This document shows, piece by piece, positions 16,451 to 39,762 of a stretch of DNA of 41,190 nt (positions are counted from its first letter, which is position 1; every line of letters starts with the position of its first letter). This stretch comes from an uncultured Eubacteriales bacterium (GTDB lineage: Bacteria; Bacillota; Clostridia; Christensenellales; Aristaeellaceae), in NCBI GenBank assembly GCA_902790495.1, contig CADASK010000030.1, positions 1 to 41,190 of the forward strand. The letters run 5' to 3'. The notes beneath the pieces were generated by a model. It was given only the letters and a program-made list of their open reading frames with translations. It was not told the DNA's origin and made no database searches. The position numbers were made by a program, and so were the translations under genes.

Positions 16451-16565
16451 GATTCCGCGCCTGCAGGCGCGGGCAGGGGGCTTTGCGATCGGTCCGGGGC
16501 TGCCGCCCGTTCTCCGCTGAAAACTCCATAACATGGAGTTTTCCGGGCGCTCCGAACCCCCTGCT
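16451..16565 (+). repeat. Dispersed palindromic repeat, copy A (long form)
   Basis: This copy begins with the fixed GC hairpin (CCGCGCC-TGCA-GGCGCGG) and then GCAGGGGG (16473-16480), which pairs with CCCCCTGC (16557-16564). Between the arms lies about 75 bases of internal structure, including a 10-base stem AAAACTCCAT (16520-16529) with ATGGAGTTTT (16533-16542) around AAC. It lacks the ACCCTTCGCC tail of the short copies. It sits between the maltose phosphorylase terminator and the amino-acid transporter promoter. Confidence 0.9.
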
Positions 16566-16592
16566 GACTTTATCGCGCTAAAGTGCTATAGT
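16564..16592 (+). promoter_or_regulatory. Probable promoter of the amino-acid transporter operon
   Basis: CTGACT (16564-16569) is followed after 17 bases by TATAGT (16587-16592). The -35 box touches the end of repeat copy A. Confidence 0.5.
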
Positions 16593-16650
16593 GGTGAAGT
16601 CCGATGGACAACCATGAAGCCATGCAATCAATGTACGGAGGGTATCAACC

Positions 16651-17430
16651 ATGAAGAAGCTGCTGTCTGTCCTGCTCGCCGCCGCCATGCTCCTGACCCT
16701 GACCGCCGCCTTCGCGGAGGACAGCGACCTCGCATATGTCGAGGGCAAGGGCACCCTGGTCGTTGGCATCACCGACTTCGCCCCCATGGACTACAAGAAC
16801 GAGGCCGGCGAGTGGATCGGCTTTGACGCCGACATGGCCAAGGCCTTCGCCGACTCCCTCGGCGTGAAGGTGGAGTTCGTGGAGATCGACTGGGACAACA
16901 AGGTGCTCGAGCTCAACGGCAAGACCATCGACTGCGTGTGGAACGGCATGACCCTGACCGACGAGGTCAAGGCCGCCATGTCCTGCTCCAACGCCTACGC
17001 CAACAACGCCCAGGTCGTCATCCTGCCCGCCGACAAGGCCGCCCAGTACGCCGACGTGGCCGCCCTGTCCGGTCTGACCTTCGCCGTGGAAGCCGGCAGC
17101 GCCGGTGAGGCCGAGGTCAAGGCCCTGAGCTATGCCACCACCGCGGTTTCCACCCAGGCCGACTCCCTGATGGAGGTCGCCGCCGGCACCTCTGACGCCG
17201 CCGTGATCGACGCGCTGATGGCTGCCGCCATGGTTGGCGAGGGCACCGGCTATGCGAACCTGACCTACACCTTCAGCCTGAACAGCGAGGAGTACGGCGT
17301 GGGCTTCCGCACCGGCTCTGATCTGACGGAGGCGCTGAACGCCTTCTTCGCCGGCGCTTATGCGGACGGCTCTATGATGGGTGTGGCTGAGACCTACGGT
17401 GTGCAGGCCGCAATCATTCCGCAGGCCTGA
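16651..17430 (+). CDS. Amino-acid ABC transporter substrate-binding protein, family 3
   Basis: The 259-residue protein is the extracytoplasmic receptor of the polar amino-acid importer encoded by the next two genes. It has a signal peptide (MKKLLSVLLAAAMLLTLTAA, cleavage likely after AFA) but no lipobox cysteine. The mature part has the family 3 opening GTLVVGITDFAPMDYKNEAG, the signature GFDADMAKAFADSLG, and VEIDWDNKVLELNGKTIDCV. GGAGG lies 9 bases before the ATG. Its intergenic space to the permease holds a strong hairpin and repeat copy B, which suits the higher expression normally needed for the receptor. The amino acid bound cannot be told. Confidence 0.93.
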   Translation: MKKLLSVLLAAAMLLTLTAAFAEDSDLAYVEGKGTLVVGITDFAPMDYKNEAGEWIGFDADMAKAFADSLGVKVEFVEIDWDNKVLELNGKTIDCVWNGMTLTDEVKAAMSCSNAYANNAQVVILPADKAAQYADVAALSGLTFAVEAGSAGEAEVKALSYATTAVSTQADSLMEVAAGTSDAAVIDALMAAAMVGEGTGYANLTYTFSLNSEEYGVGFRTGSDLTEALNAFFAGAYADGSMMGVAETYGVQAAIIPQA

Positions 17431-17451
17431 GCAAAAGGCAAGGTTTCTTCC

Positions 17452-17479
17452 GGGCAGAGAGGAGATGGCCTCTCTGCCC
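17452..17479 (+). other. Intercistronic hairpin after the binding-protein gene
   Basis: GGGCAGAGAGG and CCTCTCTGCCC form a perfect 11-base stem around AGATGG. No T run follows (TTATGCGG), so it probably stabilises the upstream message or slows rather than ends transcription. Confidence 0.75.
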
Positions 17480-17536
17480 TTATGCGGTTTATCCAGTCAT
17501 TGGATTCCTTCTCGCATTCAATGCGGCAGCAGAGGA

Positions 17537-17596
17537 GATTCCGCGCCTGCGGGCGCGGGCAAAGGGCTTTGCGATCGCCCTTTGCAAACCTTCGCC
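17537..17596 (+). repeat. Dispersed palindromic repeat, copy B (short form)
   Basis: The fixed GC hairpin is followed by GCAAAGGGC (17559-17567), loop TTTGCGATC, and GCCCTTTGC (17577-17585), then the tail ACCTTCGCC. It lies between the binding-protein and permease genes. The arm sequence differs from every other copy but remains perfectly paired. Confidence 0.92.
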
Positions 17597-17655
17597 CGCC
17601 TCCTTAATGATTAGCATTTTTATCTAAGATCGCATGAACCTGGAGGTTTGACGTT

Positions 17656-18342
17656 TTGGAACAGATCCTGCAACAGATGCCGATTGTCATCGGCGCGCTC
17701 AACACAGGCTTCCTGCAGACGCTGAAGCTCTTTTTTGTGACCCTGCTGGGCGCGCTGCCGCTGGGCCTCGTCATCGCCCTCGGCTCCATGTCCCGCAGCC
17801 TGGTGATCAGCCTGTTCACCCGCACCATCGTGTGGATCGTGCGCGGCTCCCCGCTGATGATCCAGCTGCTCATCATCTACTACTTCCCCGGCCTGGTGCT
17901 CCACACGCCCATCTGGGGCGGCGGCGAGAGCGGGCGTTTCCTGGCGGCCAGCGTGGCCTTCATCCTCAACTACGCCTGCTACTTCTCCGAGATCTACCGC
18001 GGCGGCATCCAGGGGATTCCCCGGGGTCAGGACGAAGCGGGTCTGGTGCTGGGCATGACGCCGCGGCAGATCTTCTTCCACGTCAAGCTCCTGCAGATGA
18101 TCAAGGCCATCGTGCCGCCCATCTCCAATGAGATCATGACCCTGGTCAAGGACACGTCCCTGAGCCGGATCATCGCCCTGCAGGAGATCATCTGGGCCGG
18201 CCAGTCCTTCCTCAAGGGCAGCCAGGGCATCTCCGGCGCCATCTGGCCGCTGTTCTTTACCGCCGTGTACTACCTTGTGTGGAACGGAATCATGACCATC
18301 GTTCTCGGCAGGGTGGAAAAGCGGCTGAACTATTTCAGGTGA
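17656..18342 (+). CDS. Amino-acid ABC transporter permease
   Basis: This 228-residue HisM/GlnP-type membrane subunit has about five transmembrane helices, RGSPLMIQLLIIYYF near the start, and the EAA loop GIPRGQDEAGLVLGMTPRQI that contacts the ATPase. Initiation is at TTG 17656, 9 bases after TGGAGG. It follows the substrate-binding protein gene across repeat copy B and is 15 bases ahead of the ATPase gene. There is only one permease, so it likely works as a homodimer. Confidence 0.93.
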   Translation: MEQILQQMPIVIGALNTGFLQTLKLFFVTLLGALPLGLVIALGSMSRSLVISLFTRTIVWIVRGSPLMIQLLIIYYFPGLVLHTPIWGGGESGRFLAASVAFILNYACYFSEIYRGGIQGIPRGQDEAGLVLGMTPRQIFFHVKLLQMIKAIVPPISNEIMTLVKDTSLSRIIALQEIIWAGQSFLKGSQGISGAIWPLFFTAVYYLVWNGIMTIVLGRVEKRLNYFR

Positions 18343-18357
18343 GGAGGGACTCAACCG

Positions 18358-19146
18358 ATGGCCATCCTGGAAGTTGAACACATACAGAAATCTTTTGGGG
18401 CGACCCGCGTCCTGGACGACATCTCCTTCACGCTGGAGAAGGGCAAGACCCTGTCGCTCATCGGCTCCTCCGGCAGCGGCAAGACCACCCTGCTGCGCTG
18501 CCTGAACTTTTTGGAGACCCCGGATCAGGGCGTGATCCGCGTGACCGGCGAGGTGCTGCTGGACATGGCGCAGCCCCAGAAGCAGACCGCCGCCCTGCTG
18601 CGGAAAAAGCGGCTGCACTTCGGGCTGGTCTTCCAGTCCTTCAACCTCTTTCCCCAGTACACGGCCCTGGAGAACGTGACCCTCGCAGGCTCTCTGCTGG
18701 CCAGGGAGCGGCCCGATTACCGGGAGCATAAGAAGGACATCCTTGCGGAGCTGGAGGCCCAGGCCATGGATCTGCTGACCCAGATGGGCCTGCGGGACCG
18801 GGCGGAGCGCTACCCACACCAGCTCTCCGGCGGCCAGTGCCAGCGCGTCGCCATCGCCAGGGCCCTGGCCCTGCACCCGGACATCCTCTGCTTCGACGAG
18901 CCGACCTCCGCCCTCGACCCGGAGCTGACCGGCGAGGTGCTGCGGGTCATCCGCGAGCTGGCGGAGCGCGAGACCACCATGATGATCGTCACCCACGAGA
19001 TGGCCTTCGCGAGGGACGTGGCGGACACGGTGATCTTCATGGACGACGGCAAAATCTGCGAGCAGGGCGACCCCCGCGAGGTCTTCGACCACCCGAAGGA
19101 GGAGCGCACCCGCCAGTTCCTCGCCCGCTACCGGCAGGAGCGGTAA
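18358..19146 (+). CDS. Amino-acid ABC transporter ATP-binding protein
   Basis: This 262-residue GlnQ/HisP-type ATPase powers the importer encoded by the two genes upstream. Motifs in order: Walker A IGSSGSGKTT, Q-loop LVFQSFNLFPQ, signature LSGGQCQR, Walker B ILCFDEPTSALDPE and the switch histidine in MIVTHEMAFA. An insertion around SLLARERPDYREHKKDILAE slightly lengthens it relative to the usual 240-250 residues. GGAGG is 10 bases before the ATG. Confidence 0.95.
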   Translation: MAILEVEHIQKSFGATRVLDDISFTLEKGKTLSLIGSSGSGKTTLLRCLNFLETPDQGVIRVTGEVLLDMAQPQKQTAALLRKKRLHFGLVFQSFNLFPQYTALENVTLAGSLLARERPDYREHKKDILAELEAQAMDLLTQMGLRDRAERYPHQLSGGQCQRVAIARALALHPDILCFDEPTSALDPELTGEVLRVIRELAERETTMMIVTHEMAFARDVADTVIFMDDGKICEQGDPREVFDHPKEERTRQFLARYRQER

Positions 19147-19197
19147 GCCCGTACCAGCCCCGCACAAAGCAGTTACATCAAAACCCGCTGCCGAATC

Positions 19198-19226
19198 TTG
19201 CCAAACCGCCTTTCTTCCGCTATAAT
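19198..19226 (+). promoter_or_regulatory. Promoter of the DUF1292 gene
   Basis: TTGCCA (19198-19203) is followed after 17 bases by a perfect TATAAT (19221-19226). Confidence 0.88.
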
Positions 19227-19252
19227 ATGCCTGCTGAAAGGAGCGATGCAGG

Positions 19253-19579
19253 ATGTTCGACGAAGAGAACTACCAGGAGCCCGACCTGATCGAGATGACG
19301 GATGAGGACGGCAACACCATCACCATGCAGGTGCTGGATTACTTCTTCTACAACGGCGAGGAGTACGTGATCCTGACCGACGACGTGGAGTCCGAGGACG
19401 ATGCCGAGGCTGAGGAGCCCGAGGAGATCGACTGCTACGTGATGAAGGTCGTCTCCTCCACGGACGAGAACGGCGAGGAGATGGAGGAGTTTGTGCCCAT
19501 CGAGGATCCGGAGCTTGAAGCCCGGCTGATCGAGGTCGCCTCCACCCAGATGAACGATACCGAGGACGAGGAAGAGTGA
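19253..19579 (+). CDS. DUF1292-family protein
   Basis: The 108-residue acidic protein is of the DUF1292 (YrzB-like) type found widely in Bacillota, usually of unknown function. The fold region is PDLIEMTDEDGNTITMQVLD, then YFFYNGEEYVILTDD, an acidic linker, and IDCYVMKVVSSTDENG with FVPIEDPELEARL. The ends are rich in Asp and Glu. It has its own promoter and terminator. AAGGAG is 9-10 bases before the ATG. Confidence 0.9.
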   Translation: MFDEENYQEPDLIEMTDEDGNTITMQVLDYFFYNGEEYVILTDDVESEDDAEAEEPEEIDCYVMKVVSSTDENGEEMEEFVPIEDPELEARLIEVASTQMNDTEDEEE

Positions 19580-19584
19580 ACTGC

Positions 19585-19617
19585 GGAGGCGTGCGGCTTG
19601 ACCGCTGCCTCCTTTTT
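19585..19617 (+). terminator. Terminator after the DUF1292 gene
   Basis: GGAGGC..GCGG pairs with CCGC..GCCTCC and runs into TTTTT. Confidence 0.88.
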
Positions 19618-19674
19618 CTGTTTATGTAACTAAAACCCTTGTTCGTCTATAGATTGGTCAACACAAAGGCGAGC

Positions 19675-19778
19675 GGCGAAGGGGTGGAGGGGGCTCGGAG
19701 CGCCCGGAAAACGCCATGTTATGGCGTTTTCAGCGGAGAGCGGGCGGCAGCCCCGGACCGATCGCAAAGCCGAGGCTC
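19675..19778 (-). repeat. Dispersed palindromic repeat, copy C (long form, truncated)
   Basis: In inverted orientation this matches copy A through most of its internal part and keeps the ACCCCTTCGCC tail, but has lost the GC hairpin and left arm. Its internal stem is AAAACGCCAT (19708-19717) with ATGGCGTTTT (19721-19730); copy A has T-A where this copy has G-C, a compensated change. The truncated end supplies the GAGG ribosome site of the next gene. Confidence 0.88.
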
Positions 19779-19784
19779 TTTCTG

Positions 19785-21161
19785 ATGACAGGCATGGAGC
19801 AGGTTCGCGCCCTCTCAGTCCCACTGCCGGAGGACATTCTCAAACACAAATGGGCCGGTGAGCTCGAAGCCGCCGCCGCGGCCATCGACGCGCGTCTTGA
19901 GCGCGACGACATCCCCCAGGCCATGCGCGCGCGCCTCACCTGCGAGAAGGAGCGCCTGCGCCGCCTGCCGCTGCAGTACCCCTGGAACCAGGACGAGGCC
20001 TTCGAGAAGCTCCGTGAGCTGATTCCCGACGCGACCCGGGAGGAGTTCGCCGAGATGGAGCGCGCGGGCATCGTGGATTTCATCTACCTCCACGGCGAGA
20101 AGCGCTACTTCATCCGCTTCCACAAGAGCATCGCCAAGCGCCACGAGTACCTGGCCCGCTCCGGCGGCAAGGTCAGCCCGGTGTCCGCCTGGCTCGACCC
20201 GATGATCGCCGAGGCCAAGGCGAAGGGTTATTGCGGCCGCCGGATCACCGTGGAGGCCAGCATCGCCGTGGAGCCGGACGCCTTCACCCCGGGCACCTAC
20301 CGCGTGTGGCTGCCCATCCCTGCCCCCACCGCCCAGCAGAGCCGGGTGGAGATCCTGGAGGGCCAGCCCGCCTTCGTCTCCCCCGAGGACGCCCCGGCCC
20401 GCACGGCCTACTGGGAAAAGCGGCTCGACGCCCCGGAGCGCTTCACCGTTACCTACCGCTATGAGAGCGTGATCCGCTACGCCGACCCGCTCCACGCGGA
20501 AGCTCCCGCCGCCCCGCTCTACCCCGCCACGGCCCCGGTCTGCGCGGAGGATCTCGCCGAGGACGGCACCTACATCCGCTTCACCCCCTATCTGCGCTCC
20601 CTGGCCGCGGAGCTGAGCGAGGGCCAGCCCCGCCCCGTCGACAAGGCCTGGGCCTTCTTCCGCTTCGTGACGGAGAAGGTCAAGTACGCCTTCGTCCGCA
20701 ACTACTTCCAGATCGACGATCACGGCGAATACTGTGCGGTGAACCAGCTGGGCGACTGCGGCCTGCAGGCCTTGCTGTTCATCAGCCTGTGCCGCATCGC
20801 CGGCATCCCCGCGCGCTGGCAGAGCGGCATGGCCGTGGAGCCCGACTACACCGGCTCCCACGACTGGGCGCAGTTCTACCTGGAGGGCTGGGGCTGGCTC
20901 TTCGCCGATCCGAGCTATGGCGGCGGCGCCTTCCGCGCCGGCAACCTGGAGCGCCAGGCCTTCTACTTCGGCAACCTCGACCCCATGCGCATGGCGGCCA
21001 ACCGCCGCTACATGGCGGAGCTGGAGCCGCCGATGGTGGATCTGCGCATCGACCCCTTCGACAACCAGAGCGGCGAGGTGGAGCGCGTCGGCGCGGACGC
21101 CCCCTTTGTGGGCCGCGACGTGGACGACACCGCCCGGCTGGTGTGCGCGGAGGCCCTCTGA
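19785..21161 (+). CDS. Transglutaminase-like domain protein
   Basis: This 458-residue cytoplasmic-type protein (no signal peptide) has a C-terminal transglutaminase/protease fold. The catalytic triad is visible as Cys in NQLGDCGLQALLFISLCR, His in GSHDWAQFYLEGWGW and Asp in FADPSYGG. The N-terminal half is helical and charged, followed by a beta-rich region (RITVEASIAVEPDAFTPGTY). ATG 19785 is chosen, 9 bases after GAGG; ATG 19794 is possible. The stop overlaps the aroE start by one base (TGATG), so the two are coupled. Proteins of this type may be peptidases or amidases; the substrate is unknown. Confidence 0.88.
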   Translation: MTGMEQVRALSVPLPEDILKHKWAGELEAAAAAIDARLERDDIPQAMRARLTCEKERLRRLPLQYPWNQDEAFEKLRELIPDATREEFAEMERAGIVDFIYLHGEKRYFIRFHKSIAKRHEYLARSGGKVSPVSAWLDPMIAEAKAKGYCGRRITVEASIAVEPDAFTPGTYRVWLPIPAPTAQQSRVEILEGQPAFVSPEDAPARTAYWEKRLDAPERFTVTYRYESVIRYADPLHAEAPAAPLYPATAPVCAEDLAEDGTYIRFTPYLRSLAAELSEGQPRPVDKAWAFFRFVTEKVKYAFVRNYFQIDDHGEYCAVNQLGDCGLQALLFISLCRIAGIPARWQSGMAVEPDYTGSHDWAQFYLEGWGWLFADPSYGGGAFRAGNLERQAFYFGNLDPMRMAANRRYMAELEPPMVDLRIDPFDNQSGEVERVGADAPFVGRDVDDTARLVCAEAL

Positions 21162-21961: not shown

Positions 21962-21994
21962 ATCTATAGGAACCCCTTTTCAGGAGGCCATCAA

Positions 21995-23592: not shown

Positions 23593-23641
23593 GGGCCGCC
23601 ATCGGCAAACATTGGTTCGCAAAGGTTGAAAAAGAATCAGA

Positions 23642-25742: not shown

Positions 25743-27022
25743 ATGAAGTTTTATCTGGCCATCGACATCGGCGCGTCCAGCGGCCGCCACATCGTCGGCT
25801 GGATGGAGAACGGGGAGATCCGCACCCAGGAGGTCTACCGCTTCCCCAACGGCGTGACCGAACGGGACGGCCACCTCACCTGGGACGTGGACGCCCTGGA
25901 GCGCTCGGTCCGCGAGGGCATCGACGAGGCGCTGAAGCGCTACCCGAAGATCGAGAGCCTGTCCATCGACACCTGGGGCGTGGACTACGTGCTGATGCGG
26001 GGCGACGAACCCCTTCTCCCCTGCTACGCCTACCGGGACAGCCGCACCGAGGCGGTCATCCCCAAGGCCCACGAGGCCATGGCCTTCGAGGAGCTCTACC
26101 GGCGCACGGGCATCCAGTTCCAGCCCTTCAACACCCTCTATCAGCTTTACGCCGACAAGCTGGCGGGCCGTCTGGAGGGCGTGACCGACTTCCTGCTGAT
26201 GCCGGAATACCTGATGTACCGCCTGTGCGGCGTGAAGGCCCACGAATACACCAACGCCACCACGGGCAGCATGGTCAGCGCGGTCACCGGCCAGTATGAC
26301 CCGGATATCATCGCGGCCCTCGGCTTCCCGCCCGCTCTCTTCAAGCCCCTGCAGCAGCCCGGCGAGACCATCGGCAGCTACAAGGGCATCCGGGTGATGC
26401 TCTGCGCGACCCACGACACGGGCAGCGCGGTGGAGGGCATCCCGATGGAGGGCGAGGCCCTCTACATCTCCAGCGGCACCTGGAGCCTGCTGGGTGTCAA
26501 GACTCCCAAGCCCCTCACCGACTCCGCCAGCCGGGCCGCCAACTACAGCAACGAGGGCGGCGTCGGCTACAACCGCTACCAGAAGACATCATGGGCATGT
26601 GGCTGGTCAACCGGCTGCGCGCGGAGCTCTGCCCGGACACGCCCTGGGACGCCATTACCGCCGACGCCCGGGAGAAGCGCTTCGACGACCTGGTGGACGC
26701 CAACGATCCGGCCTTCCTGGCCCCCGAGAGCATGAAGGCCGCCTTCGACGGGAAGCTCCCCCATCCGCCCAAGTGCCCCGGCGGCTACTTCCGCTGCGCC
26801 TACCGCTCCCTGGCCCAGAGCTACGCCCAAGCCATCCGGGAGATTGAAACCAACACGCAAAAGGTGTATGATACACTGTACATCGTGGGCGGCGGCGCGA
26901 AGAACGGCTACCTGAACCGCCTGACGGAGGAAGCCACCGGCAAGCGCGTCATCGCCCTGCCCATCGAGGCCACCGCCCTGGGCAACCTGCGCATCCAGAT
27001 GAAGGAGGACACAGCATGTTAG
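25743..27022 (+). pseudogene. rhaB: Rhamnulokinase with a single-base deletion frameshift
   Basis: This kinase phosphorylates L-rhamnulose. The first part shows FYLAIDIGASSGRHIVGWM, SIDTWGVDYVL, YRDSRTEAVI, ATHDTGSAVEGIP and SSGTWSLLGVKTP. At about 26585-26587 the frame breaks: AAGACATC should be AAGAACATC. The correct continuation (IMGMWLVNRLRAEL..DTLYIVGGGAKNGYLN..IEATALGN) is in the next frame and ends at 27022. Adding one A restores a protein of about 426 residues. Even then the C-terminus stops soon after ALGN, shorter than usual. ATG 25743 is 6 bases after GGAGGG. The end overlaps the isomerase start by 7 bases, so the repaired frame is the natural one. It may be a real mutation or a sequencing error. 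Confidence 0.88.
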
Positions 27023-28440
27023 TTGAAACCAAAGCCCGCATCGGCGTCTTCGCCATTGCCCTGGGCGCTTACCTGCCCCAGTTTCCCAGCCTGGTGCCCG
27101 AGTTCGAAGGCCAGTATCAGGAGTTCAAGAAGCTGATCCCGGACAGTGTGGAGCTGATCGACGGCGGCCTGGTGACCACCAAGGAGCAGTCCATGGCCGC
27201 GGGCGACAAGTTCCGCGCCGCCGACGTGGATCTGGTGGTTCTGCAACTGCTGACCTACGCCACCAGCTACAACATGCTGCCCGCCGTGCGCGACCTGGAC
27301 GTGCCGGTGGTGCTGGTGAATGTGCAGAAGAAGCGCTCCCCCGACTACGCGACCACCGACACCCCCACCTGGCTGGGCACCCTCTACGCCTGCGGCGCCG
27401 TGGGCGAGATGGTGGCGGACCTGGAGCGCGCCGGCAAGCGCCACGCGGTGATCACCGGCGTCGTGGAGGGCGGTGACCCCCAGGTGGAGGCCGAGATCGC
27501 CGACTGGTGCAAGGCCGCGCAGGTGCGCCGCCGCTTCCGTGACACGAACATCGCCCAGATCGGCCGCCCCTACCCCGGCATGATGGACCTGTACATCGAC
27601 GAGACCAACCTCTACCACCGCATGTGGCTCTACACCAAGCAGTTTGACTGGGAGAAGATGTGGGCTATCGCGGACCACATCACCGACGAGGCCGCCATCC
27701 GCGCCAAGGCCGAGGACATCCTCAACACCTTCGACATCGAGGGCGGCGCTACGGTGGAGACCGTGTGGGACATGGCGAAGTACGTCGTAGCCTTCGAGCA
27801 GTGGTGCAGAGACGAGCAGCTGGGCTTCGTGGCCTCCCACTACGACGGCTTCGCCCAGGGCATCGCGGGCAAGCTGGACTCCATGCTGATCCCCGCCTTC
27901 TCCATGCTGATCAAGCAGGGCACCGCCTGCGCCGTGGAGGGCGATATCAAGGTTGCCATGGCCATGGGCATCCTGAAGGTCATCTCCGGCACGGGCCAGC
28001 TGAGCGAGATGTACTCCATCGACTTTGACGAGGACATCTGCATCATCGGCCACTCCGGCTCCGGCGACGCGGACACCTCTCAGGCCCGCAAGCCCACCAT
28101 GAAGATCGTCCCCGTGTTCCACGGCAAGACCGGCGGCGGCTACCTCACCCAGTTCTACCCGCCGACCAACACGCCCATCACCTTCCTGGGCATCACCCAG
28201 GACCGCGACGGCCACTTCAAGTTCGTGGTCGCCGAGGGCGTCAACGAGGAGGGCCCGATCTTCATGTTCGGCGACACGAACATGCGGATGCGCTTCACCT
28301 GCGGCGCGCGGGACTTCTGCAACCGCTGGAGCGAGGCCGGCCCGACCCATCACATGGCCGCCGCGGTGGGCCGCCACATCGACACCATCCTGAAGGTCGC
28401 CAAGATCTTCAACCTCCCGGTGGATGTGATCACCCGTTGA
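27016..28440 (+). CDS. L-arabinose/L-fucose isomerase-family sugar isomerase
   Basis: The 474-residue protein belongs to the arabinose/fucose isomerase superfamily (RIGVFAIALGAYLPQFPSLV, LVVLQLLTYATSYNMLPAVR, VVLVNVQKK, IIGHSGSGDADTSQARKP). By its place between a rhamnulokinase and a rhamnulose-1-phosphate aldolase it presumably makes L-rhamnulose (or a related deoxyketose), taking the part normally played by RhaA, which it does not resemble. Acidic and histidine residues suited to Mn binding are present (EGDIKVAMAMGIL, HHMAAAVGRHID), but I cannot fix specificity. AAGGAGG is 9 bases before the ATG, within the end of rhaB. Repeat copy D abuts its stop codon. Confidence 0.85.
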   Translation: MLVETKARIGVFAIALGAYLPQFPSLVPEFEGQYQEFKKLIPDSVELIDGGLVTTKEQSMAAGDKFRAADVDLVVLQLLTYATSYNMLPAVRDLDVPVVLVNVQKKRSPDYATTDTPTWLGTLYACGAVGEMVADLERAGKRHAVITGVVEGGDPQVEAEIADWCKAAQVRRRFRDTNIAQIGRPYPGMMDLYIDETNLYHRMWLYTKQFDWEKMWAIADHITDEAAIRAKAEDILNTFDIEGGATVETVWDMAKYVVAFEQWCRDEQLGFVASHYDGFAQGIAGKLDSMLIPAFSMLIKQGTACAVEGDIKVAMAMGILKVISGTGQLSEMYSIDFDEDICIIGHSGSGDADTSQARKPTMKIVPVFHGKTGGGYLTQFYPPTNTPITFLGITQDRDGHFKFVVAEGVNEEGPIFMFGDTNMRMRFTCGARDFCNRWSEAGPTHHMAAAVGRHIDTILKVAKIFNLPVDVITR

Positions 28441-28497
28441 CCGAAGGGTGCAGGGGCGACCGGAAAGCCCCTGCCCGCGCCCGCAGGCGCGGAATCC
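28441..28497 (-). repeat. Dispersed palindromic repeat, copy D (short form)
   Basis: Inverted relative to the operon, it starts at the base after the isomerase stop. GCAGGGGC (28450-28457) and GCCCCTGC (28467-28474) pair around GACCGGAAA, and the fixed GC hairpin follows. The loop is the most diverged of all copies. A 10-base direct repeat GCATGACATT (28501-28510 and 28534-28543) lies just after it, the second copy being at the rhaD start. Confidence 0.92.
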
Positions 28498-28531
28498 CTT
28501 GCATGACATTTGGAAAGTGAGAAAGAAAACC

Positions 28532-31556: not shown

Positions 31557-31615
31557 GTTCCGCGCCTGCGGGCGCGGGCAGGGGGCTTTGCGATCGCCCC
31601 CTGCACCCCTTCGCC
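31557..31615 (+). repeat. Dispersed palindromic repeat, copy E (short form)
   Basis: This is the most regular copy. The GC hairpin is followed by GCAGGGGGC (31578-31586), loop TTTGCGATC, GCCCCCTGC (31596-31604), and tail ACCCCTTCGCC. It lies between the second permease and the binding-protein gene. A small separate hairpin GCCGA-TACG-TCGGC follows at about 31669-31682. Confidence 0.93.
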
Positions 31616-33266: not shown

Positions 33267-33282
33267 GCTTTTCCAAGCCGGA

Positions 33283-33315: not shown

Positions 33316-33323
33316 GGCCCGGC

Positions 33324-33397
33324 ATTCTGAGGTCTGCGCTTGAACAGCAAAATGGCGAGAGCAGACCTCAGAATCAATCCTTCTCAGAGGAGGTCTG
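33324..33397 (+). promoter_or_regulatory. Candidate RNA switch in front of the DppD-type ATPase gene
   Basis: ATTCTGAGGTCTGC (33324-33337) is perfectly complementary to GCAGACCTCAGAAT (33361-33374). The same right arm can also pair 8 bases (CAGACCTC, 33362-33369) with GAGGTCTG (33390-33397), which contains the ribosome site of the next gene. The right arm can therefore either close the upstream hairpin or cover the ribosome site. Confidence 0.5.
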
Positions 33398-33400
33398 TCC

Positions 33401-34378: not shown

Positions 34379-35955
34379 GCGGGAAACAGCCATTGCTCGA
34401 GCTCAAAAAGCTGAAGAAATACTTTCCGGTTCGCCGCGGCGTTTCCATCAAGGCCGTGGAGGACGTGACCTTCACCATCTACGAGGGCGAGAAGTTCGGC
34501 GTCGTGGGCGAATCCGGCTGCGGCAAGTCGACCCTGGGCCGCGTGATCCTCCAGCTCTATCAGCAGACCAGCGGCGCGGCCATCTACTACGGGCGCACGC
34601 TGGAGGAGATCGGCCCCCAGTACCTCTCTCACGAGATCTCCAAGCTGATGGAATACCAGACCAAGGCCAACGAGTTCTATCAGAAGTCCCTGAAGCTGGA
34701 CGCTAAGGCCGAGGCCATCCGCAAGGAGAAGGACGCCCTCTCTCCCCTGGGCACCACGAACCGCGAGGTGCTCAAGGAGATCCGCCTGTCCAAGAAGATC
34801 AGCGACCTGGAATTCCAGTCCCTGGAGCTGCGCAAGGACGCCTCCCGCCACCTGCGCGAGGGCTCCCGGACCGTCGGCTCGCTGATCCTGTGCAAGGATC
34901 TGCCGAAGGTGAAGGAGCTCTTCGAGCAGTCCGCCCGGGAGACCGCCATGGCCACCGTCGCCAACCGCGCCCTGAAGACGCTGGAGCACCAGAGCGAGCA
35001 GCTGGCCGTGGAGGGCAAGCAGGACGCGTCCCTGGAGAAGAAGATCGAGGCGGCCCGCGCCCGCGTCCAGAAGCACGTCGACGCGGCCAGGCAGTACCGG
35101 CAGAAGGCCTGGGACGATTATCACGGCAAGGACATCCTGCCCCTCACCGAGCGCACCCTCGACCCGGAATACCAGAAGAAGCTGGACGGCAACTATGAGA
35201 CCGGCATCAACCTGGGCAAGCTGACCCGCAGCGAGATGCGGGGCCTGCGCCGGGATATGCAGATGATCTTCCAGGATCCCGCCGCCAGCCTGGATCCCCG
35301 CCAGACGGTGGGCAAATCCATCGAGGAGATCCTGGTCATCAACGAGGATCTCTCCGCCGAGGTGCGCAAGGAGCGGGTGATGAACCTGCTGGACGAGGTC
35401 GGCCTCAAGCGCGAGCACTACTACGTCTACCCCCACACCCTCTCCGGCGGCCAGAAGCAGCGCGTCGGCATCGCCCGCGCCATCGCCCTCAATCCGAAGT
35501 TCGTGGTGCTGGACGAGTGCGTCTCCGCCCTGGACGTGTCCGTGCAGGCCCAGATCCTCCAGCTGCTCAACGAGCTGAGCAAGGAGAAGGATCTGACCTA
35601 CTTCTTCATCACCCACGACCTGGGCGTCGTGAAGCACTTCTGCGACCGCATCGTGGTGATGTACCTGGGCAACGTGTGCGAGATCGCCGAAAGCAAGGAT
35701 CTCTTCCACAACCCGATGCACCCCTACACCCAGTCCCTGCTGGCGGTGGTGCCGAGGATGCGCGTGGGCGAGCACTCCACCGAGTTTGTGCTGGAGGGCG
35801 ACGTGCCCAGCGCCATCCATCCCCCGAAGGGCTGCCCCTTCCACACCCGCTGCTCCAGGTGCATGGAGATCTGCTCCCAGGAGAAGCCCAAGCCCATCGA
35901 GAACGAACCGGGTCACTTTGTGGCCTGCCATCTCTACAGCAAACAGGAGAGTTGA
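34375..35955 (+). CDS. Peptide ABC transporter ATP-binding protein, DppF type, with a helical insertion of about 200 residues
   Basis: At 526 residues this is far longer than the usual 310-340. Walker A (VGESGCGKSTLGR) is at residues 45-56. The Q-loop (MQMIFQDPAASLDP) comes only at about 295-308 rather than near 95. The insert, about residues 82-283, is charged and helical with coiled-coil character (SKLMEYQTKANEFYQKSLKL, KKISDLEFQSLELRKDASRH, DASLEKKIEAARARVQKHVD). The rest is standard: LSGGQKQR, FVVLDECVSALDVS, YFFITHDLGVVKHF, and a cysteine-bearing tail (GCPFHTRCSRCMEICSQ). Walker B reads LDEC where LDEP is usual. The frame is open throughout, with normal codon use, so this is not an assembly fusion. 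It is coupled to the first ATPase gene by ATGA. Confidence 0.95.
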   Translation: MSGKQPLLELKKLKKYFPVRRGVSIKAVEDVTFTIYEGEKFGVVGESGCGKSTLGRVILQLYQQTSGAAIYYGRTLEEIGPQYLSHEISKLMEYQTKANEFYQKSLKLDAKAEAIRKEKDALSPLGTTNREVLKEIRLSKKISDLEFQSLELRKDASRHLREGSRTVGSLILCKDLPKVKELFEQSARETAMATVANRALKTLEHQSEQLAVEGKQDASLEKKIEAARARVQKHVDAARQYRQKAWDDYHGKDILPLTERTLDPEYQKKLDGNYETGINLGKLTRSEMRGLRRDMQMIFQDPAASLDPRQTVGKSIEEILVINEDLSAEVRKERVMNLLDEVGLKREHYYVYPHTLSGGQKQRVGIARAIALNPKFVVLDECVSALDVSVQAQILQLLNELSKEKDLTYFFITHDLGVVKHFCDRIVVMYLGNVCEIAESKDLFHNPMHPYTQSLLAVVPRMRVGEHSTEFVLEGDVPSAIHPPKGCPFHTRCSRCMEICSQEKPKPIENEPGHFVACHLYSKQES

Positions 35956-35959
35956 AGCC

Positions 35960-37591
35960 ATGACAGCATCCTTCGATCCGCTGGCCCAGCGGTATCCGTC
36001 CCAGCGCTTCCCGATCTATGCCCGTGGCGGCATGGTCAACGCCCCCAGCCCCCAGGCTGCGGCGGCCGGTCTTGAGGCGCTGCGCCAGGGCGGCAACGCC
36101 ATGGACGCCGCCGTTGCCACCGCGGCCGCGCTCACTGTGACCGAGCCCACCGCCAACGGCATCGGCTCCGACGCCTTCGCCCTCATCTGGTCGGAGAAGG
36201 ACCAGAAGCTCTACGGCCTGAACTCCAGCGGCCCCGCGCCCATGCTCGCCTCCATCGAGCGCATCAAGGCGGACGGCCGGGACGTGAACGGGAAGATGCC
36301 CGTCCACGGCTGGACCCCGGTGACCGTCTCCGGCGCGCCCAAGGCCTGGGCGGAGATCAACGGCCGCTTCGGCAGGCTCTCCCTGGCCCAGGATCTGGCC
36401 CCGGCGGTGCGCTATGCCCGGGAGGGCTACCCCTGCTCCCCCAACCTCGCGCTGATGTGGCAGCGGGGCTACAACCGCTATAAGAAGCTGCTGAATGGGC
36501 CTGAGTTCGACACCTGGTACAAGACCTTCGTGCCGGAGGGACGCCCCTACGAGGCCGGCGACATGATCCGCCTGCCTGACCACGCGGCCACCCTGGAGGC
36601 CATCGGCGCCACCAACGCGGACGCCTTCTACAAGGGCGACATCGCCCGGAAGATCGACGAGGAGAGCCGCAAGTACGGCGGCTACCTGCGCTATGAGGAT
36701 CTAGCCGCCTACGAGGCGAAGTGGGTGGAGCCCCTCCGCGTGAACTACCGCGGCTACCAGGTCTGCGAGATCCCTCCGAACGGCCAGGGCATCGTCGCGC
36801 TGATGGCCCTGAACATCCTGAACAACTTCACCTTCACTGAGAAGGACAGCGCCGAGACGGCCCACCGCCAGCTGGAGGCCATCAAGATCGCCTTCGCGGA
36901 CGCCTTCCACTACGTCACCGATCCGGCGAAGATGGCCATCGACTACCAGACCCTGCTCTCCCCCGCCTACGGCGCGCAGCGCGCCCAGGAGATCGGCGCA
37001 AGGGCCCAGGTCTACAGCCACGCGATTCCGCCCAAGAGCGGCACGGTCTACATGTGCTGCGCCGACGGCGAGGGCAACATGGTGTCCTACATCCAGTCCA
37101 ACTACATGGGCTTCGGCTCCGGCATCGTGGTGGATGGCACAGGCATCGCCCTGCAGAACCGCGGCAGCGACTTCTCCCTGAACCCGGAGGACGCCAACTG
37201 CCTGGAGCCGGGCAAGCGTACCTACCACACCATCATCCCCGGCTTCCTGCTGCGCGGGGACGGCAAGCCCGTCGGCCCCTTCGGCGTCATGGGCGGCTAC
37301 ATGCAGCCCCAGGGCCACCTGCAGGTCGTGATGAACTACGTGGACTTCCACATGGACCCGCAGCAGGCCCTGGACGCGCCCCGCTGGCAGTGGATGCGCG
37401 ACGGCCGCGTGACCGTGGAGACCCGCTTCAACCCGCACCTGGCGGAGGCCCTGCAGCGCCTAGGCCACGACGTGTCGGTCGACCTGAGCACACCCAGCTT
37501 CGGCCGCGGCCAGATGATCGTGCGCCTGGACAACGGCGTGCTGGTCGGCGGCACCGAGTCCCGCACGGACAGCAACATCGCTTGCTATTAA
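35960..37591 (+). CDS. Gamma-glutamyltransferase family protein, cytoplasmic type
   Basis: This 543-residue Ntn-hydrolase precursor probably cleaves itself before the threonine in KSGTVYMCCADGEGNMVSYI. Other family features are GGMVNAPSPQAAAAGLEALR, GGNAMDAAVATAAALTVTEP, IPPNGQGIVALMALNIL, NRGSDFSLNP, PGKRTYHTIIPGF and GVMGGYMQPQGHLQV. It has no signal peptide, unlike secreted GGT, and resembles YwrD-type enzymes. Placed 4 bases after the peptide-transporter ATPases, it likely hydrolyses gamma-glutamyl compounds (for example glutathione) imported by that system; this is inference. GGAGAG is 9 bases before the ATG. Confidence 0.93.
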   Translation: MTASFDPLAQRYPSQRFPIYARGGMVNAPSPQAAAAGLEALRQGGNAMDAAVATAAALTVTEPTANGIGSDAFALIWSEKDQKLYGLNSSGPAPMLASIERIKADGRDVNGKMPVHGWTPVTVSGAPKAWAEINGRFGRLSLAQDLAPAVRYAREGYPCSPNLALMWQRGYNRYKKLLNGPEFDTWYKTFVPEGRPYEAGDMIRLPDHAATLEAIGATNADAFYKGDIARKIDEESRKYGGYLRYEDLAAYEAKWVEPLRVNYRGYQVCEIPPNGQGIVALMALNILNNFTFTEKDSAETAHRQLEAIKIAFADAFHYVTDPAKMAIDYQTLLSPAYGAQRAQEIGARAQVYSHAIPPKSGTVYMCCADGEGNMVSYIQSNYMGFGSGIVVDGTGIALQNRGSDFSLNPEDANCLEPGKRTYHTIIPGFLLRGDGKPVGPFGVMGGYMQPQGHLQVVMNYVDFHMDPQQALDAPRWQWMRDGRVTVETRFNPHLAEALQRLGHDVSVDLSTPSFGRGQMIVRLDNGVLVGGTESRTDSNIACY

Positions 37592-37593
37592 TA

Positions 37594-37965
37594 GTGGCCC
37601 CGAGCATCATCATCATCACCGCCATCGCCATGTTCCTGTCCGGCTTCAAGGACAACGTCTACGTGCAGCACGCCCTGTCCGCCATCTCCGTGTGCGTGGT
37701 GGCGCTGATTCTGGACGCCGTGATCGGCATGTGGAAGAAGGGCGTCAAGGACATCTGGGGTCTCCTCATCTTCCTGGTGGCCCTGGCCGTCAGCATCTTC
37801 ACGGGCCTGGAGCTGTACAAGCAGACCGGCTCGCTGCTGGATATCCTGGACTGGAAGAAGGTCACGCTCTTCGCCGTGATGTTTGTTGGCATCCGCAAGC
37901 TGAAGTGGCATCCGGTGGTGTACATCGCGATCTCCGCGGTGATCGGACTGATCTTCGCGTTCTGA
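37594..37965 (+). pseudogene. 5'-truncated chromate transporter (ChrA-family) remnant
   Basis: Immediately after the gamma-glutamyltransferase stop, a frame reads VAPSIIIITAIAMFL, then FKDNVYVQHALSAISVCVVA, several membrane helices and WKKVTLFAVMFVGIRKLKWH with PVVYIAISAVIGLIFAF. This matches by eye the C-terminal two thirds of a short-form chromate-transporter domain, starting inside its conserved PSF segment. The first 60-90 residues are missing. The only start (GTG 37594) has no ribosome site. A deletion has apparently joined the two genes at about 37592. An assembly join cannot be excluded. Confidence 0.7.
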
Positions 37966-38000
37966 TTCTTTTCCGGATTGAAACACCAAACGACAATGAC

Positions 38001-38048
38001 AAAACCCCGGAGAACTTGGCTGCTCGGCAGCGGTTCTCCGGGGTTTTT
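38001..38048. terminator. Bidirectional terminator
   Basis: AAAACCCCGGAGAAC (38001-38015) is perfectly complementary to GTTCTCCGGGGTTTT (38033-38047), with A and T runs on the outside. It separates the converging peptide-transporter and HD-protein operons. Confidence 0.93.
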
Positions 38049-38049
38049 G

Positions 38050-38550
38050 TTATTGTTCCAGCCCAAACATCGTGGCGTAGATACGTTTGCCTGTGGGCGT
38101 GGCGAAGATGCGGCGGTAGGTGTGCTCCAGCGTCTCCTTCGCGTGACCGTTCTCAAAGCTGTTCACGATGAAGTCCGCCTCCACCAGGATCTGGTGGTCG
38201 ATGCCGTCGATGGGGTCATAGGTGTGGTGCTCGCCCACCAGGGCGCAGACCCTGGCGATCTCCTCCTCCGTGAAGGGCAGCCGGGACAGCAGCGCCCGGG
38301 CCAGAGCTGGCCCCTCCTTCTCCTGCAGCGGGCCGGCGTGGGAGCCGTACTTCTCGTTGCACAGCGGGATGGCGATGTCGTGCACCAGGGCCGCGGCCTC
38401 CAGCACCTCCGCCGTGGGAGCGTCGATGCCCTCCGATTCGGCGATCAGGCAGGCGTAGGCGTGCACCTTGGTGAAGTGCTGGATCAAGTCGGGGTCTCCC
38501 CGGTCAAGGTCGATCATCGCGTGAAACAGCTGTCGGATTCTCTCCTGCAT
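38050..38550 (-). CDS. HD-domain phosphohydrolase-like protein
   Basis: This 166-residue metal-dependent HD protein has the motif order H (FTKVHAYACLIAESEG), HD (AAALVHDIAIPLC), HH (LVGEHHTYDPIDGID) and a final D (ILVEADFIVNSFE). It resembles small stand-alone HD hydrolases that act on nucleotides or phosphate esters; the substrate is unknown. It is last in a minus-strand operon, 23 bases after the ABC ATPase gene. The ribosome site is AAGG 4 bases, or GGGGAG about 11 bases, before the ATG. Confidence 0.9.
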   Translation of the reverse strand: MQERIRQLFHAMIDLDRGDPDLIQHFTKVHAYACLIAESEGIDAPTAEVLEAAALVHDIAIPLCNEKYGSHAGPLQEKEGPALARALLSRLPFTEEEIARVCALVGEHHTYDPIDGIDHQILVEADFIVNSFENGHAKETLEHTYRRIFATPTGKRIYATMFGLEQ

Positions 38551-38573
38551 GCTTCCTTCTCTCCCCTCCGCAC

Positions 38574-39647
38574 TCAGGTCTGGATCTGGAGCATCTTCTC
38601 CAGCATGCCGTCGTCCTCGAACACCATGAAGTCCCGGATGCCGATGGACACCTCCTGGCCCTCCCGCAGGTGCTTGAACTCATAGCCGTTGACGATGACG
38701 CGCACGAGGGTATCCCCCACCCGCACCCGGCAGTCGTCCACGTCGCCGAGATAGTACTGGGCCTCCAGGACGCCCCGCAGCGCGCCGTTCTCCGTGAAAT
38801 AGAGGTTTTCGGGCCGGATGGCCACCTCCACCTTGCCGGTGCGCTCCCCCTCGTAGGGGATGGCCTGGCCGCCCAGGCCCGGGAAGACAATCCTCCCCTG
38901 CTGCACCTCGCCCTTGAAGAAATCCACCTTGCCCAGGAAATCGGCCACGAACTGGTTGACGGGCGTGTTGTAGATTTCCTGCGGCGTGCCGCACTGCTGC
39001 ACACCGCCGCGGTTGATCAGGAAGATGCGGTCGCTCATCGCCATGGCCTCCGTCTGGTCGTGGGTGACGTAGACCACCGTGATGCCCAGCTTCCGCTGAA
39101 TTTCCTTGATCTCAAAGCGCATGGATTCCCTGAGCTTGGCGTCCAGGTTGGACAGCGGCTCGTCCAGCAGCAGCAGCTTCGGGGCCGCCACCAGCGCCCG
39201 CGCCAGGGCCACGCGCTGCTGCTGACCACCCGACATCTGGTTCGGGAAGCGGTCGGCATAGCAGCTCAGGTGCACGATGTCCAGCACCCGGTCCACGCTC
39301 GCCTTGATCTCGGCCTTGCTCTTCTTTTGGATGGTCAGCGGATAGGCCACATTGTCGAAGACGTTCATGTGCGGCCACACGGCGTAGGACTGGAACACCA
39401 TGCCGATGTTGCGCTTTTCCGGCGGGACAAAGGTTTTTCCGCCCGACACCAGCAGGTCGTCGATATACACCTCGCCGGAGGTCGGCTTCTCGAAGCCGGC
39501 GATGATGCGCAGCATGGTGGTCTTTCCGCAGCCGGAGGGCCCCAGCAGCGTGATAAACTCGCCGTCCCCGATGGTCTCGTTGAATTCCTGAAGCACCACA
39601 TGGCTGCCAAAAGCCTTCGTGACGTGCTTGAGCGTGACAGTTGCCAT
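38574..39647 (-). CDS. ABC transporter ATP-binding protein, PotA/FbpC type
   Basis: This 357-residue ATPase has Walker A LLGPSGCGKTTMLR, Q-loop GMVFQSYAVWPHM, signature MSGGQQQR, Walker B LLLLDEPLSNLDAKLR and VVYVTHDQTEAMA, then a C-terminal TOBE region of about 120 residues (VEVAIRPENLYF, VRVIVNGYEFKHL). ATG 39647 is used because the fold starts there and AAAGGA lies 10 bases upstream; an in-frame GTG at 39671 has no ribosome site. With the fused permease encoded upstream it forms an iron(III)-, spermidine- or thiamine-class importer. The binding-protein gene must lie outside the window. Confidence 0.94.
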   Translation of the reverse strand: MATVTLKHVTKAFGSHVVLQEFNETIGDGEFITLLGPSGCGKTTMLRIIAGFEKPTSGEVYIDDLLVSGGKTFVPPEKRNIGMVFQSYAVWPHMNVFDNVAYPLTIQKKSKAEIKASVDRVLDIVHLSCYADRFPNQMSGGQQQRVALARALVAAPKLLLLDEPLSNLDAKLRESMRFEIKEIQRKLGITVVYVTHDQTEAMAMSDRIFLINRGGVQQCGTPQEIYNTPVNQFVADFLGKVDFFKGEVQQGRIVFPGLGGQAIPYEGERTGKVEVAIRPENLYFTENGALRGVLEAQYYLGDVDDCRVRVGDTLVRVIVNGYEFKHLREGQEVSIGIRDFMVFEDDGMLEKMLQIQT

Positions 39648-39701
39648 GCTAATCGTTCCTTTCTGATTCACACCTAATACACTGCCATACTAAATTCGGC
39701 T

Positions 39702-39762
39702 GGCGAAGGGTTGTCAGGGGCGATCGCAAAGCCCCTGACCCGCGCCCGCAGGCGCGGAATCC
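39702..39762 (-). repeat. Dispersed palindromic repeat, copy F (short form)
   Basis: On the minus strand, in the sense of transcription, the GC hairpin is followed by GTCAGGGGC, loop TTTGCGATC and GCCCCTGAC (plus-strand 39713-39721, 39722-39730 and 39731-39739), and tail CAACCCTTCGCC. It lies between the permease and ATPase genes. Confidence 0.93.

Follow-up and report, generated by a model that had tools for sequence, protein, structure and literature searches.

The repeats analyzed here represent a new MITE-like family, the core of which has, judging from sequence comparison, an unusual predicted fold, namely a hairpin followed by a pseudoknot. In Clostridia of gut and rumen, such small repeats occur between genes in hundreds of copies; the carrier genus has members from rumen and omasum. 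Our preferred reading, with a probability of about 0.6, is a non-autonomous MITE-like mobile element that has spread recently, with subfamilies that differ by species and a core that folds as a hairpin plus an H-type pseudoknot. A small non-autonomous element had already been among the suggestions of the original prediction and is the best-fitting part of its interpretation.

The window, i.e., the whole stretch of 41,190 nucleotides that was analyzed, contains all six copies at the positions predicted earlier; four are complete cores and two (A and C) are long forms (Table 1). The second-hairpin arms of B, D, E and F have the letters given before and are perfectly paired. Copy D begins directly after the TGA stop of a fucose-isomerase-like gene. 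The insert of copy A is a hairpin domain of about 65 nt; beyond copy A, the long form has, among the matches listed, at least 22 matches in its own genome and at least 16 in the closest relative, G005 (92-100% identity). When five copies (C was left out) were folded as RNA, four were better than shuffles, with z of -3.4 to -4.5, and D had z of -2.6.

Table 1. Six copies in the window and their predicted parts (H1, first hairpin; S1, stem of the second hairpin; S2, pairing of its loop with the tail; L3, linker)
Feature	Position	Strand	Description
Copy A	16455-16564	+	long form, 3' truncated; H1 with TGCA loop, S1 5' arm, loop TTTGCGATC, then insert, S1 3' arm ACCCCCTGC; no L3, no tail
Copy B	17541-17595	+	complete core
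Copy B, H1	17541-17558	+	CCGCGCC TGCG GGCGCGG
Copy B, S1	17559-17567 / 17577-17585	+	GCAAAGGGC / GCCCTTTGC
Copy B, S2	17571-17574 / 17592-17595	+	GCGA / TCGC
Copy B, L3	17586-17590	+	AAACC
Copy C	19676-19768	-	long form, 5' truncated; without H1 and S1 5' arm; retains tail TTCGC and arm GCCCCCTCC
Copy D	28441-28492	-	complete core; loop TTTCCGGTC, tail TTCGG; L3 ACCC
Copy E	31560-31614	+	complete core
Copy E, H1	31560-31577	+	
Copy E, S1	31578-31586 / 31596-31604	+	GCAGGGGGC / GCCCCCTGC
Copy E, S2	31590-31593 / 31611-31614	+	GCGA / TCGC
Copy E, L3	31605-31609	+	ACCCC
Copy F	39703-39757	-	complete core; S1 GTCAGGGGC / GCCCCTGAC; S2 GCGA / TCGC; L3 AACCC

In the genome from which the window comes (the window genome), 348 places match the H1 pattern with up to two mismatches (185 + 163, compared to 0 + 0 for the reversed pattern), and exact GGGCTTTGCGATCGCCC has 111 + 114 matches versus 0 in the control; chance is therefore excluded for the family. 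The expectation of many copies outside genes is confirmed, since all 59 parsed copies in a sample of 441 kb (441,190 bases) are intergenic according to a dicodon gene caller. The sample yielded 62 candidates, of which the three without a recognizable tail were dropped, including copy A of the window; copy C, without H1, was never among the 62. All gene-context counts are based on the 59 copies. An earlier, cruder gene caller, which had placed 10 of the 59 inside predicted ORFs, was set aside because it picked shadow ORFs on the wrong strand, e.g., window 27019-28509 (-) over 27016-28440 (+), the product of the latter having 89-94% identity to relatives.

Copies are also present in phage contigs. 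Among 391 genomes sampled across the class, matches were found in two, the window genome and G146; the three matches in G146 have no stem and were rejected. Further stemless matches, ascribed to chance, came from Sphingomonas (L099), from a Dehalococcoidia MAG (L179), from an actinobacterium (L118) and, among four viral contigs, from L182. As had been suspected, the element belongs to no described family that we could find: a literature search returned no matching published repeat, and no Rfam covariance model matched the window or L093, L102 and L183 at the gathering score. Among sub-threshold Rfam matches of copy B, the lowest E-value belongs to the CPEB3 ribozyme (15.9 bits, cut-off 35). 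An HDV-like ribozyme was rejected, the match being sub-threshold and on the minus strand only; the topology of the repeat core presumably does not fit it either.

The shared core of 49-57 nt has the order H1 (with TGCG loop), S1, L1 (TTT), S2 and L3, where S2 would pair the loop of the second hairpin, GCGA or CCGA, with the tail, TCGC or TCGG. It should be noted that all loop searches demanded TTT, so the constancy of L1 is partly built in. Compensated changes, together with the rule for L3 described below, indicate that the predicted fold of H1, S1 and S2 is kept. In 21 distinct 55-nt cores, hand-picked from 85 as those with a 9-bp S1 and H1 in register, 98.8% of 420 cells are paired, compared to 38-50% in slid registers, and 42 cells are changed on both sides, compared to 12.4 in shuffles (equalled in 0 of 500). 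The original claim that pairing itself is kept is thus upheld. The GC hairpin is fixed, as claimed, inside the window; elsewhere H1 has about 17 arm sequences, some of them length variants, with TGCG in nearly all (15 sources). A search demanding perfect pairing found a hairpin of at least 5 bp directly before the pseudoknot unit in 195 of 228 units and none in 33 (15 sources). In a phage array, two adjacent units (L295:582-636 and 679-733) with different H1, S1 and S2 are still paired, with one G.T pair.

Among 258 hairpins collected without use of the tail in the search, loop and tail are CCGA/TCGG in 190, GCGA/TCGC in 34, G.T variants in 11 and others in 23; crossed combinations number 0. 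The outer S2 pair is C-G in 317, G-C in 55 and unpaired in 3 of 375 units, a set for which TTCG had to lie no more than 8 nt from S1 (on recount, this excludes 12 of 389 distinct hairpins) and in which stems lengthened by a chance pair were re-registered (5 of 377 on recount). Such covarying pairing of loop with tail is what characterizes an H-type pseudoknot. In S2, mismatches are G.T in 18 cases versus A.C in 2 (17 versus 2 minus one doubly mismatched unit; binomial p = 0.0007 for 17 to 2), and those in S1 have no strand bias (G.T 7, A.C 10). Copy D illustrates the switch. Its loop TTTCCGGTC differs from the otherwise fixed loop of the short copies, as reported before; its tail, however, is TTCGG, not TTCGC, a compensated pseudoknot change with a G.T wobble, so that the tail is not shared by all four short copies. 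The loop-tail covariation and the linker rule had been missed because the tail of D had been taken to be close to ACCCTTCGCC.

The linker L3 is parallel to the 5' arm of S1, about one nucleotide per base pair and with C at nearly every G; an exception to this letter rule is the array unit L295:582-636 with L3 ATTGC. The length of L3 equals that of S1 minus four in 362 of 375 units (on recount, 360 of 377 without re-registering the chance-extended stems and 364 of 377 with it). The register test was confined to the 26 types that follow this length rule; in these, G-to-C agreement between S1 and L3 was 0.931 in the parallel and 0.414 in the antiparallel sense, the shuffled maximum being 0.914 (0 of 5000). 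An antiparallel competitor of S1 is ruled out by this test and by ACTCC opposite AGAGG. We infer that L3 may form base triples with S1; what the data give is the parallel letter rule. It is possible, although we regard it as somewhat short of probable, that the mobile repeat is selected as a folded strand with a "third-strand code" (one linker nucleotide for each base pair of S1, namely C for G, T for an internal A and otherwise A) and a predicted built-in triple helix, and that shape, not sequence, is read by an enzyme or the host, while the vehicles vary (TIR ends, bare cores, phage genomes).

The sites of copies A, B and C are empty in G005. At the site of B, the total gain compared to G005 is 113 nt, the core being flanked by outer arms AATGC..AGGAG / CTCCT..GCATT, and the repeat is absent in five further genomes. 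The D site is empty in four orthologous loci (G004, G006, G010 and one of two in G009) and has other sequence in G005 and the second G009 locus; G008 has a pseudoknot unit without H1. Since the sites of A-D are empty in relatives, the copies move. In the sequence examined of RGIG5986, a member of the same genus, there are 66 full elements of 134-160 nt with terminal inverted repeats (TIR), TACYRATCTCA. Their 3-bp flanks are identical in 42 of 66 (shuffled mean 14.2, maximum 29 in 20000) and conform to TNA on the left in 62, on the right in 57 and on both sides in 53; shuffles within these 53 gave a mean of 14.1 and a maximum of 27 in 20000. RGIG2676 has a single copy with this type of TIR, flanked by a target-site duplication (TSD). 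In the RGIG5986 stretches, 56 of 93 pattern-matched cores are without TIR, of which about four are chance matches. A de novo TIR search in RGIG2676 stayed at control level (22 of 83 cores versus 23 of 83), and the ends AGGTTCTT/AAGAACCT, suggested by a MAFFT consensus, were therefore rejected.

No TIR or TSD beyond chance was detected around 58 cores of the window genome. For the outer arms there, the consensus sequences GGCAGCAGGG/CCCGCCGCC pair apart from two A.C mismatches; their own mates were not clearly better than others (p = 0.03; 26-nt flanks, 54 copies), and a second test with double centring gave z of -1.0 to -1.6 (58 copies), so an outer stem is not claimed.

The preferred mobile-element reading would then be as follows. 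Copies are gained where relatives have an empty site, and the complete element of RGIG5986, with its TIRs, seems to make 3-bp TNA target-site duplications; a transposase supplied in trans, probably of the DDE type, would have moved this form. The core may be read by shape, its paired arms varying freely and its loops being fixed, and the acting strand could be RNA from the inserted copy or single-stranded DNA during movement. Because the core apparently spreads in the window genome with no recognizable TIR or TSD, it may be the core, or else its short outer arms, that is acted on there. Concerning an enzyme, we detected no DDE_Tnp_1 match in the window genome; the sole match in RGIG5986 (L310), a gene split over two frames, has unrelated ends and was rejected. 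The stretches examined, from incomplete draft genomes, contain no transposase-bearing element with these ends; candidate end pairs of an autonomous IS proved to be neighbouring short elements.

Could the arms covary without any function of the fold, through template switching in replication that corrects imperfect palindromes (quasi-palindrome correction)? Such a copying mechanism, working on hairpins as the original prediction proposed, could account for the arms of H1 and S1. It would also fit the adjacent tandem units of L178, which differ by a compensated H1 pair as correction would leave, and the unbiased S1 mismatches, as predicted by neutral decay after insertion. It does not account for S2, which joins the loop by 4 bp to a tail beyond the stem, keeps its switching outer pair in 372 of 375 units and favours G.T over A.C, nor for L3, which follows S1 in a parallel mirror sense that template switching cannot write. 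For S2 and L3, this improbable explanation already meets a contradiction, unless both go back to a few ancestors. Similarly low is our estimate for a host RNA element (mRNA stabilizer, attenuator or regulator) that would have been amplified for its usefulness in place. The RNA-like pseudoknot and the A/C-rich linker, both conserved, speak for it, as do the H1 loop TGCG, which we take to be of the cUNCGg type, and the depletion of copies between divergent genes (4 of 59, compared to 40 of 228 intergenic regions; Fisher p = 0.04). However, orientation is random where flanking genes are codirectional (19 same, 26 opposite), sites are empty in relatives, phage contigs carry copies, and inspection by eye of 9 low-copy genomes revealed unrelated neighbours and no conserved cis-regulated gene.

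Movement of a REP/BIME-type repeat as folded single-stranded DNA by a Y1 HUH transposase (RAYT) or an IS200/IS605-like enzyme, with the tail resembling a cleavage tetranucleotide and the loop a guide, is an unlikely alternative in our estimate. It draws on the small size, intergenic placement and hairpin core, on neighbour pairs (inverted in 6 of 7), on tandem arrays of units, and on one of two Y1 genes in G009, which has a short core and a long one at a distance of about 5 kb (contig C63). The IS200/IS605 cleavage site is also set by short pairing plus triples with a guide at the hairpin foot, according to PMC6006769. Against this, the proposed REP/RAYT connection found no support: Y1 transposase (PF01797) has no match in G000, G001, G002, G005 and G010, those members of the genus, the window genome included, that have more than a few copies, and is present in G006, G007 and G009, where 0, 0 and 3 copies were seen (the zero in G006 being from the exact-GGGCTTTGCGATCGCCC pattern alone), and in 5 of 14 control genomes. 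No core flanks the Y1 gene at any of four loci; two loop-pattern matches beside Y1 genes are due to chance, so that these genes were rejected as partners, and those of G009 and G007 have their own short hairpins (CCACCAGC/GCTGGTGG). A GT[AG]G foot is not conserved in 58 window-genome copies; the consensus before H1 is GGCAGCAGGGG-TTCC in 40 copies (CCGCG type) and CTGCAGAGGA-TTTCG in 12 (CGCCG type), the remaining 6 having no separate consensus. Presumably, the TIR and TNA duplication of RGIG5986 do not fit Y1 chemistry. They also stand against SINE-like copying at the RNA level, in which the pseudoknot would be the recognition site of a reverse transcriptase acting in trans. This very improbable model is consistent with a structure-selected core, with free arms and with mobility without TIR in the window genome, but RVT_1 (PF00078) has no match in G000, G001, G002, G005 and G010; matches are present in G003 and G009.

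With hundreds of natural variants of the same small predicted pseudoknot in a genome, and with a letter rule that links linker and stem, the family opens its structure, including possible base triples, its recognition by enzymes and its mobility to direct tests. Should movement require the fold, this would imply a mobilization system that reads shape and is neither RAYT nor retroelement based. Bacterial interspersed repeats are usually simple hairpins, and their function and movement are debated. SAM-II and preQ1 riboswitches, telomerase and frameshifting pseudoknots are of the H-type with loop-stem triples; the repeat shares with them the order S1-L1-S2-L3 and an A/C-rich linker along S1, but in our repeat the linker matches the stem position by position in length and letters, and the motif occurs as a dispersed, mobile repeat where theirs is a single cis element. 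The IS5-type groups IS1031 and ISL2 make 3-bp TNA duplications like those found here, although TACYRATCTCA is tied to no transposase found in this study. According to PMC2229807, RUP, Correia/NEMIS, ERIC and YPAL/RU-2 are, like our repeat, shorter than 200 nt, non-coding, intergenic and present in many copies with a predicted structured transcript, YPAL/RU-2 has target duplications from 3 bp up, and bacterial MITEs have the TIR and target duplication seen in RGIG5986. Unlike those MITEs, our core is a hairpin plus predicted pseudoknot with loop-tail and linker covariation, the TSD is TNA and not TA, and TIRs were not seen in two high-copy genomes. Like REP/BIME (PMC6006769), the family consists of short extragenic palindromes that are dispersed, fall into several subfamilies in each genome and form inverted pairs and tandem clusters; it differs from REP/BIME with RAYT/TnpA-REP in that no Y1 gene was found in those members of the genus that have more than a few copies and no GT[AG]G foot in the window genome, and in its predicted pseudoknot core and a form with TIR and TSD.

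The repeat family is real, frequent, mobile and structured, and its surprising part is a pseudoknot together with the rule obeyed by its linker. In the window, copies B, D, E and F are complete cores; A and C belong to a long form, and both are truncated. The core consists of a hairpin (H1) followed by an H-type pseudoknot, in which the loop of stem S1 begins with TTT (L1), later loop letters pair with the tail (S2), and a linker (L3) runs along S1. A search of the source genome for the H1 hairpin, allowing up to two mismatches, found 185 + 163 places, compared to none in the reversed control, and exact GGGCTTTGCGATCGCCC has 225 copies in this genome; the expectation of many further copies was borne out. 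The repeat had not been recognized as a described family, and no matching family was found in Rfam (window plus stretches L093, L102 and L183).

The exact short form TTTGCGATC was present in 6 of 60 genomes searched, including its own, all from the window's genus. A broader pattern had matches in 12 of 200 genomes of a family sample: 8 of the 11 genus members sampled (G002, 294; G010, 222; G000, 45; G001, 5; G005, 4; G011, 3; G003 and G009, 1 each) and G525, G545, G013 and G579, from three other genera. Among the matches listed in a scan of named MAGs, for which counts are "at least" values, the same fold occurs in Clostridia MAGs of rumen and gut, including RGIG2676 (G010) and RGIG5986 (G002) from goat and sheep omasum, both members of the window's genus, RUG095, RGIG2654, several bins and Ruminococcus MAGs. 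Two cores also lie near the ends of L129, a contig of 7.3 kb that was assigned to Bacteroidales RGIG2703, probably wrongly, and would then come from Clostridia. Three of four viral contigs with matches carry the fold, sited between ORFs judged by eye to be terminase- and capsid-like, as do four human faecal phage records, one with a tandem pair; no copy was found in the plasmids searched. Tandem arrays of units (see the table), spaced by ~70-75 or 97-100 nt, occur in low-copy genomes, RGIG2676 and a phage record, and some neighbouring units differ through compensated changes.

A perfect H1 hairpin precedes 195 of 228 pseudoknot units. Its arms come in ~17 sequences, and its loop is TGCG in almost every case, a loop of the cUNCGg type in RNA. 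S1 is mostly 7-10 bp long, and the four loop letters after TTT (a loop start required by the searches) pair with the final four of the tail. A tail-blind search yielded 258 hairpins, whereas the control loop CTNNNNTTT gave no hairpin at all. The loop/tail pairs were CCGA/TCGG in 190 and GCGA/TCGC in 34, with no crossed combinations, the G.T variants were CCGG/TCGG (7) and GCGG/TCGC (4), and 23 were other pairs, many from stems one pair longer or shorter with the tail read out of place. Copy D, singled out in the original prediction as the exception to a fixed loop, does have a different loop and belongs to the switched loop/tail class. The outer S2 pair in 375 units is C-G in 317, G-C in 55 and unpaired in 3. 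The predicted covariation was supported in 21 in-register cores tested with controls, where four of five measures exceeded all 500 shuffles; the fifth, for further pair types, showed no excess in these cores (11 versus 11.0 in shuffles). Mismatches are G.T in 7 and A.C in 10 cases in S1, and G.T in 18 and A.C in 2 in S2 (p 0.0007 for 17 to 2). The excess of G.T over A.C favours pairing of S2 on the strand as drawn, although inheritance of a variant may account for some of the cases.

In 362 of 375 units and 26 of 38 types, L3 has four fewer nucleotides than S1 has base pairs (360 of 377 units without re-registering of stems). Since many of the types are related, the counts overstate the number of independent events. 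The L3 letters track the S1 5' arm in the parallel sense (CCAGGGC with ACC; CCAGGGGC, ACCC; CCAGAGGC, ACTC; CCAGAGGGC, ACTCC; CCAAAGGGC, AAACC; GCAGGGGGC, ACCCC; GTCAGGGGC, AACCC; CCAGGGGGGC, ACCCCC), with an agreement of 0.931, compared to 0.414 for antiparallel and at most 0.914 in shuffles (n = 5000). Exceptions to the letter rule include ATTGC beside CCAGAGGGC (L295) and ATCC beside CCAGGGGC. The register of Hoogsteen-type triplexes has C facing G-C and T facing A-T pairs on a third strand that runs parallel, and we infer that L3 may form base triples with S1.

The long form (window; L043, L044, L048) has a hairpin domain inserted in the S1 loop, with compensated arms of its own (GAAAACTCCAT/ATGGAGTTTTC, GAAAACGCCAT/ATGGCGTTTTC, GAAAACAGTCCA/TGGACTGTTTTC). 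RGIG5986 has another expansion in many copies (L094, L110, L131, L216), the hairpin TCCGCAGCCGGA within the S1 5' arm, and a second repeat (L209, L211, L216, L222), a CCCCAGCAAGCTGGGG palindrome in a longer unit, often adjoining cores. A fold-back of 102 nt consists of 5' halves from two subtypes, joined head to head and with terminal inverted repeats (TIRs) at both ends, which suggests an origin by template switching.

Positions of features in the window and in the sequence stretches examined (L)
Feature	Location	Strand
RNase P RNA (class A)	window 3505-3838	+
tRNA	window 11848-11920	+
Long form, inserted domain	window 16491-16556	
Long form, inserted domain	window 19695-19759	
Head-to-head fold-back	L167:3495-3596	
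Tandem array	L178:1560-1910	
Tandem array	L102:3560-3800	
Tandem array	L121:6237-6683	
Tandem array	L295:582-733	
Tandem terminal repeats	L208 near 2222-2243	
Tandem terminal repeats	L223 near 8934-8976	

Sites A, B, C and D were compared with relatives. In the closest relative, G005, the intergenic orthologues without A, B and C measure 190, 113 and 91 nt, compared to 263, 226 and 206 nt in the window. Site B is also empty in G001, G002, G003, G004 and G009; at site D, there is no insert in G004, G006, G010 and one of the two G009 loci, different sequence in G005 and the other G009 locus, and a pseudoknot unit without H1 in G008. The net gain relative to G005, 113 nt at B and 115 nt at C, exceeds the core of B, which measures 57 nt; the core was therefore probably accompanied by short outer arms when it moved. 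At A the gain is just 73 nt versus a 110-nt element, so this site must have undergone other changes too. Copies lie in both orientations; where the flanking genes are codirectional, orientation is random (19 copies the same way as the genes, 26 the opposite way), and few copies lie between divergent genes (4 of 59, compared to 40 of 228 intergenic regions).

The full element in RGIG5986 is 134-160 nt long, with ends TACYRATCTCA / TGAGATYRGTA. Among 66 unique full elements (RGIG5986 stretches and loci examined), TNA stands on the left in 62, on the right in 57 and on both sides in 53; flanks are identical in 42, compared to a mean of 14 and a maximum of 29 in 20,000 shuffles. This is transposition that duplicates 3 bp. 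Some groups of the IS5 family typically make TNA duplications. In RGIG2676, one copy with the same ends has TGA on either side, the left TGA lying where an ORF ends; TIR-type ends were not found beyond chance in the window genome or in RGIG2676, and in the RGIG5986 stretches they are missing from 56 of the 93 cores matched by the pattern (~4 of the 56 being chance matches). Hence either one core is carried by several vehicles or the core is handled on its own. Two or three tandem TACYRATCTCA-like terminal repeats, spaced by 11 or 16 nt, adjoin elements in L208, L218, L223 and L248, as if the element ends themselves acted as targets or footprints.

No transposase for the TIR-bearing element was found in the RGIG5986 and RGIG2676 sequence examined; in L310 (RGIG5986), a transposase gene split over two frames has ends CATGAATCCGTGAAACTCA, unrelated to the repeats. 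A search for a RAYT/IS200-like gene had been suggested, and this idea was not supported: among genus members, the five genomes that hold more than a few copies (G000, G001, G002, G005, G010), searched as drafts of 66-95% completeness, gave no match to a Y1 transposase (PF01797) or to a reverse transcriptase (PF00078). Both are present in G009, where three copies were seen, and no cores flank its Y1 genes. On its contig C63 (L304, L205) lie one long and one short core similar to the RGIG2676 ones, with a Y1 transposase gene ~5 kb away; a CRISPR-like repeat (GTCCCGCCCCGCACGGGGCGGGTGGATTGAA) stands in two copies beside that gene.

The family does not match REP/RAYT on two features that define the latter (PMC6006769): no Y1 gene was found in those five draft genomes, and no conserved GT[AG]G foot in 58 window-genome copies. 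No description of such repeats was found in the literature searched, whose coverage mostly excludes subscription papers and preprints. In size and placement, and in RGIG5986 also in TIR and target-site duplication, the family behaves like the small mobile repeats that are the subject of PMC2229807.
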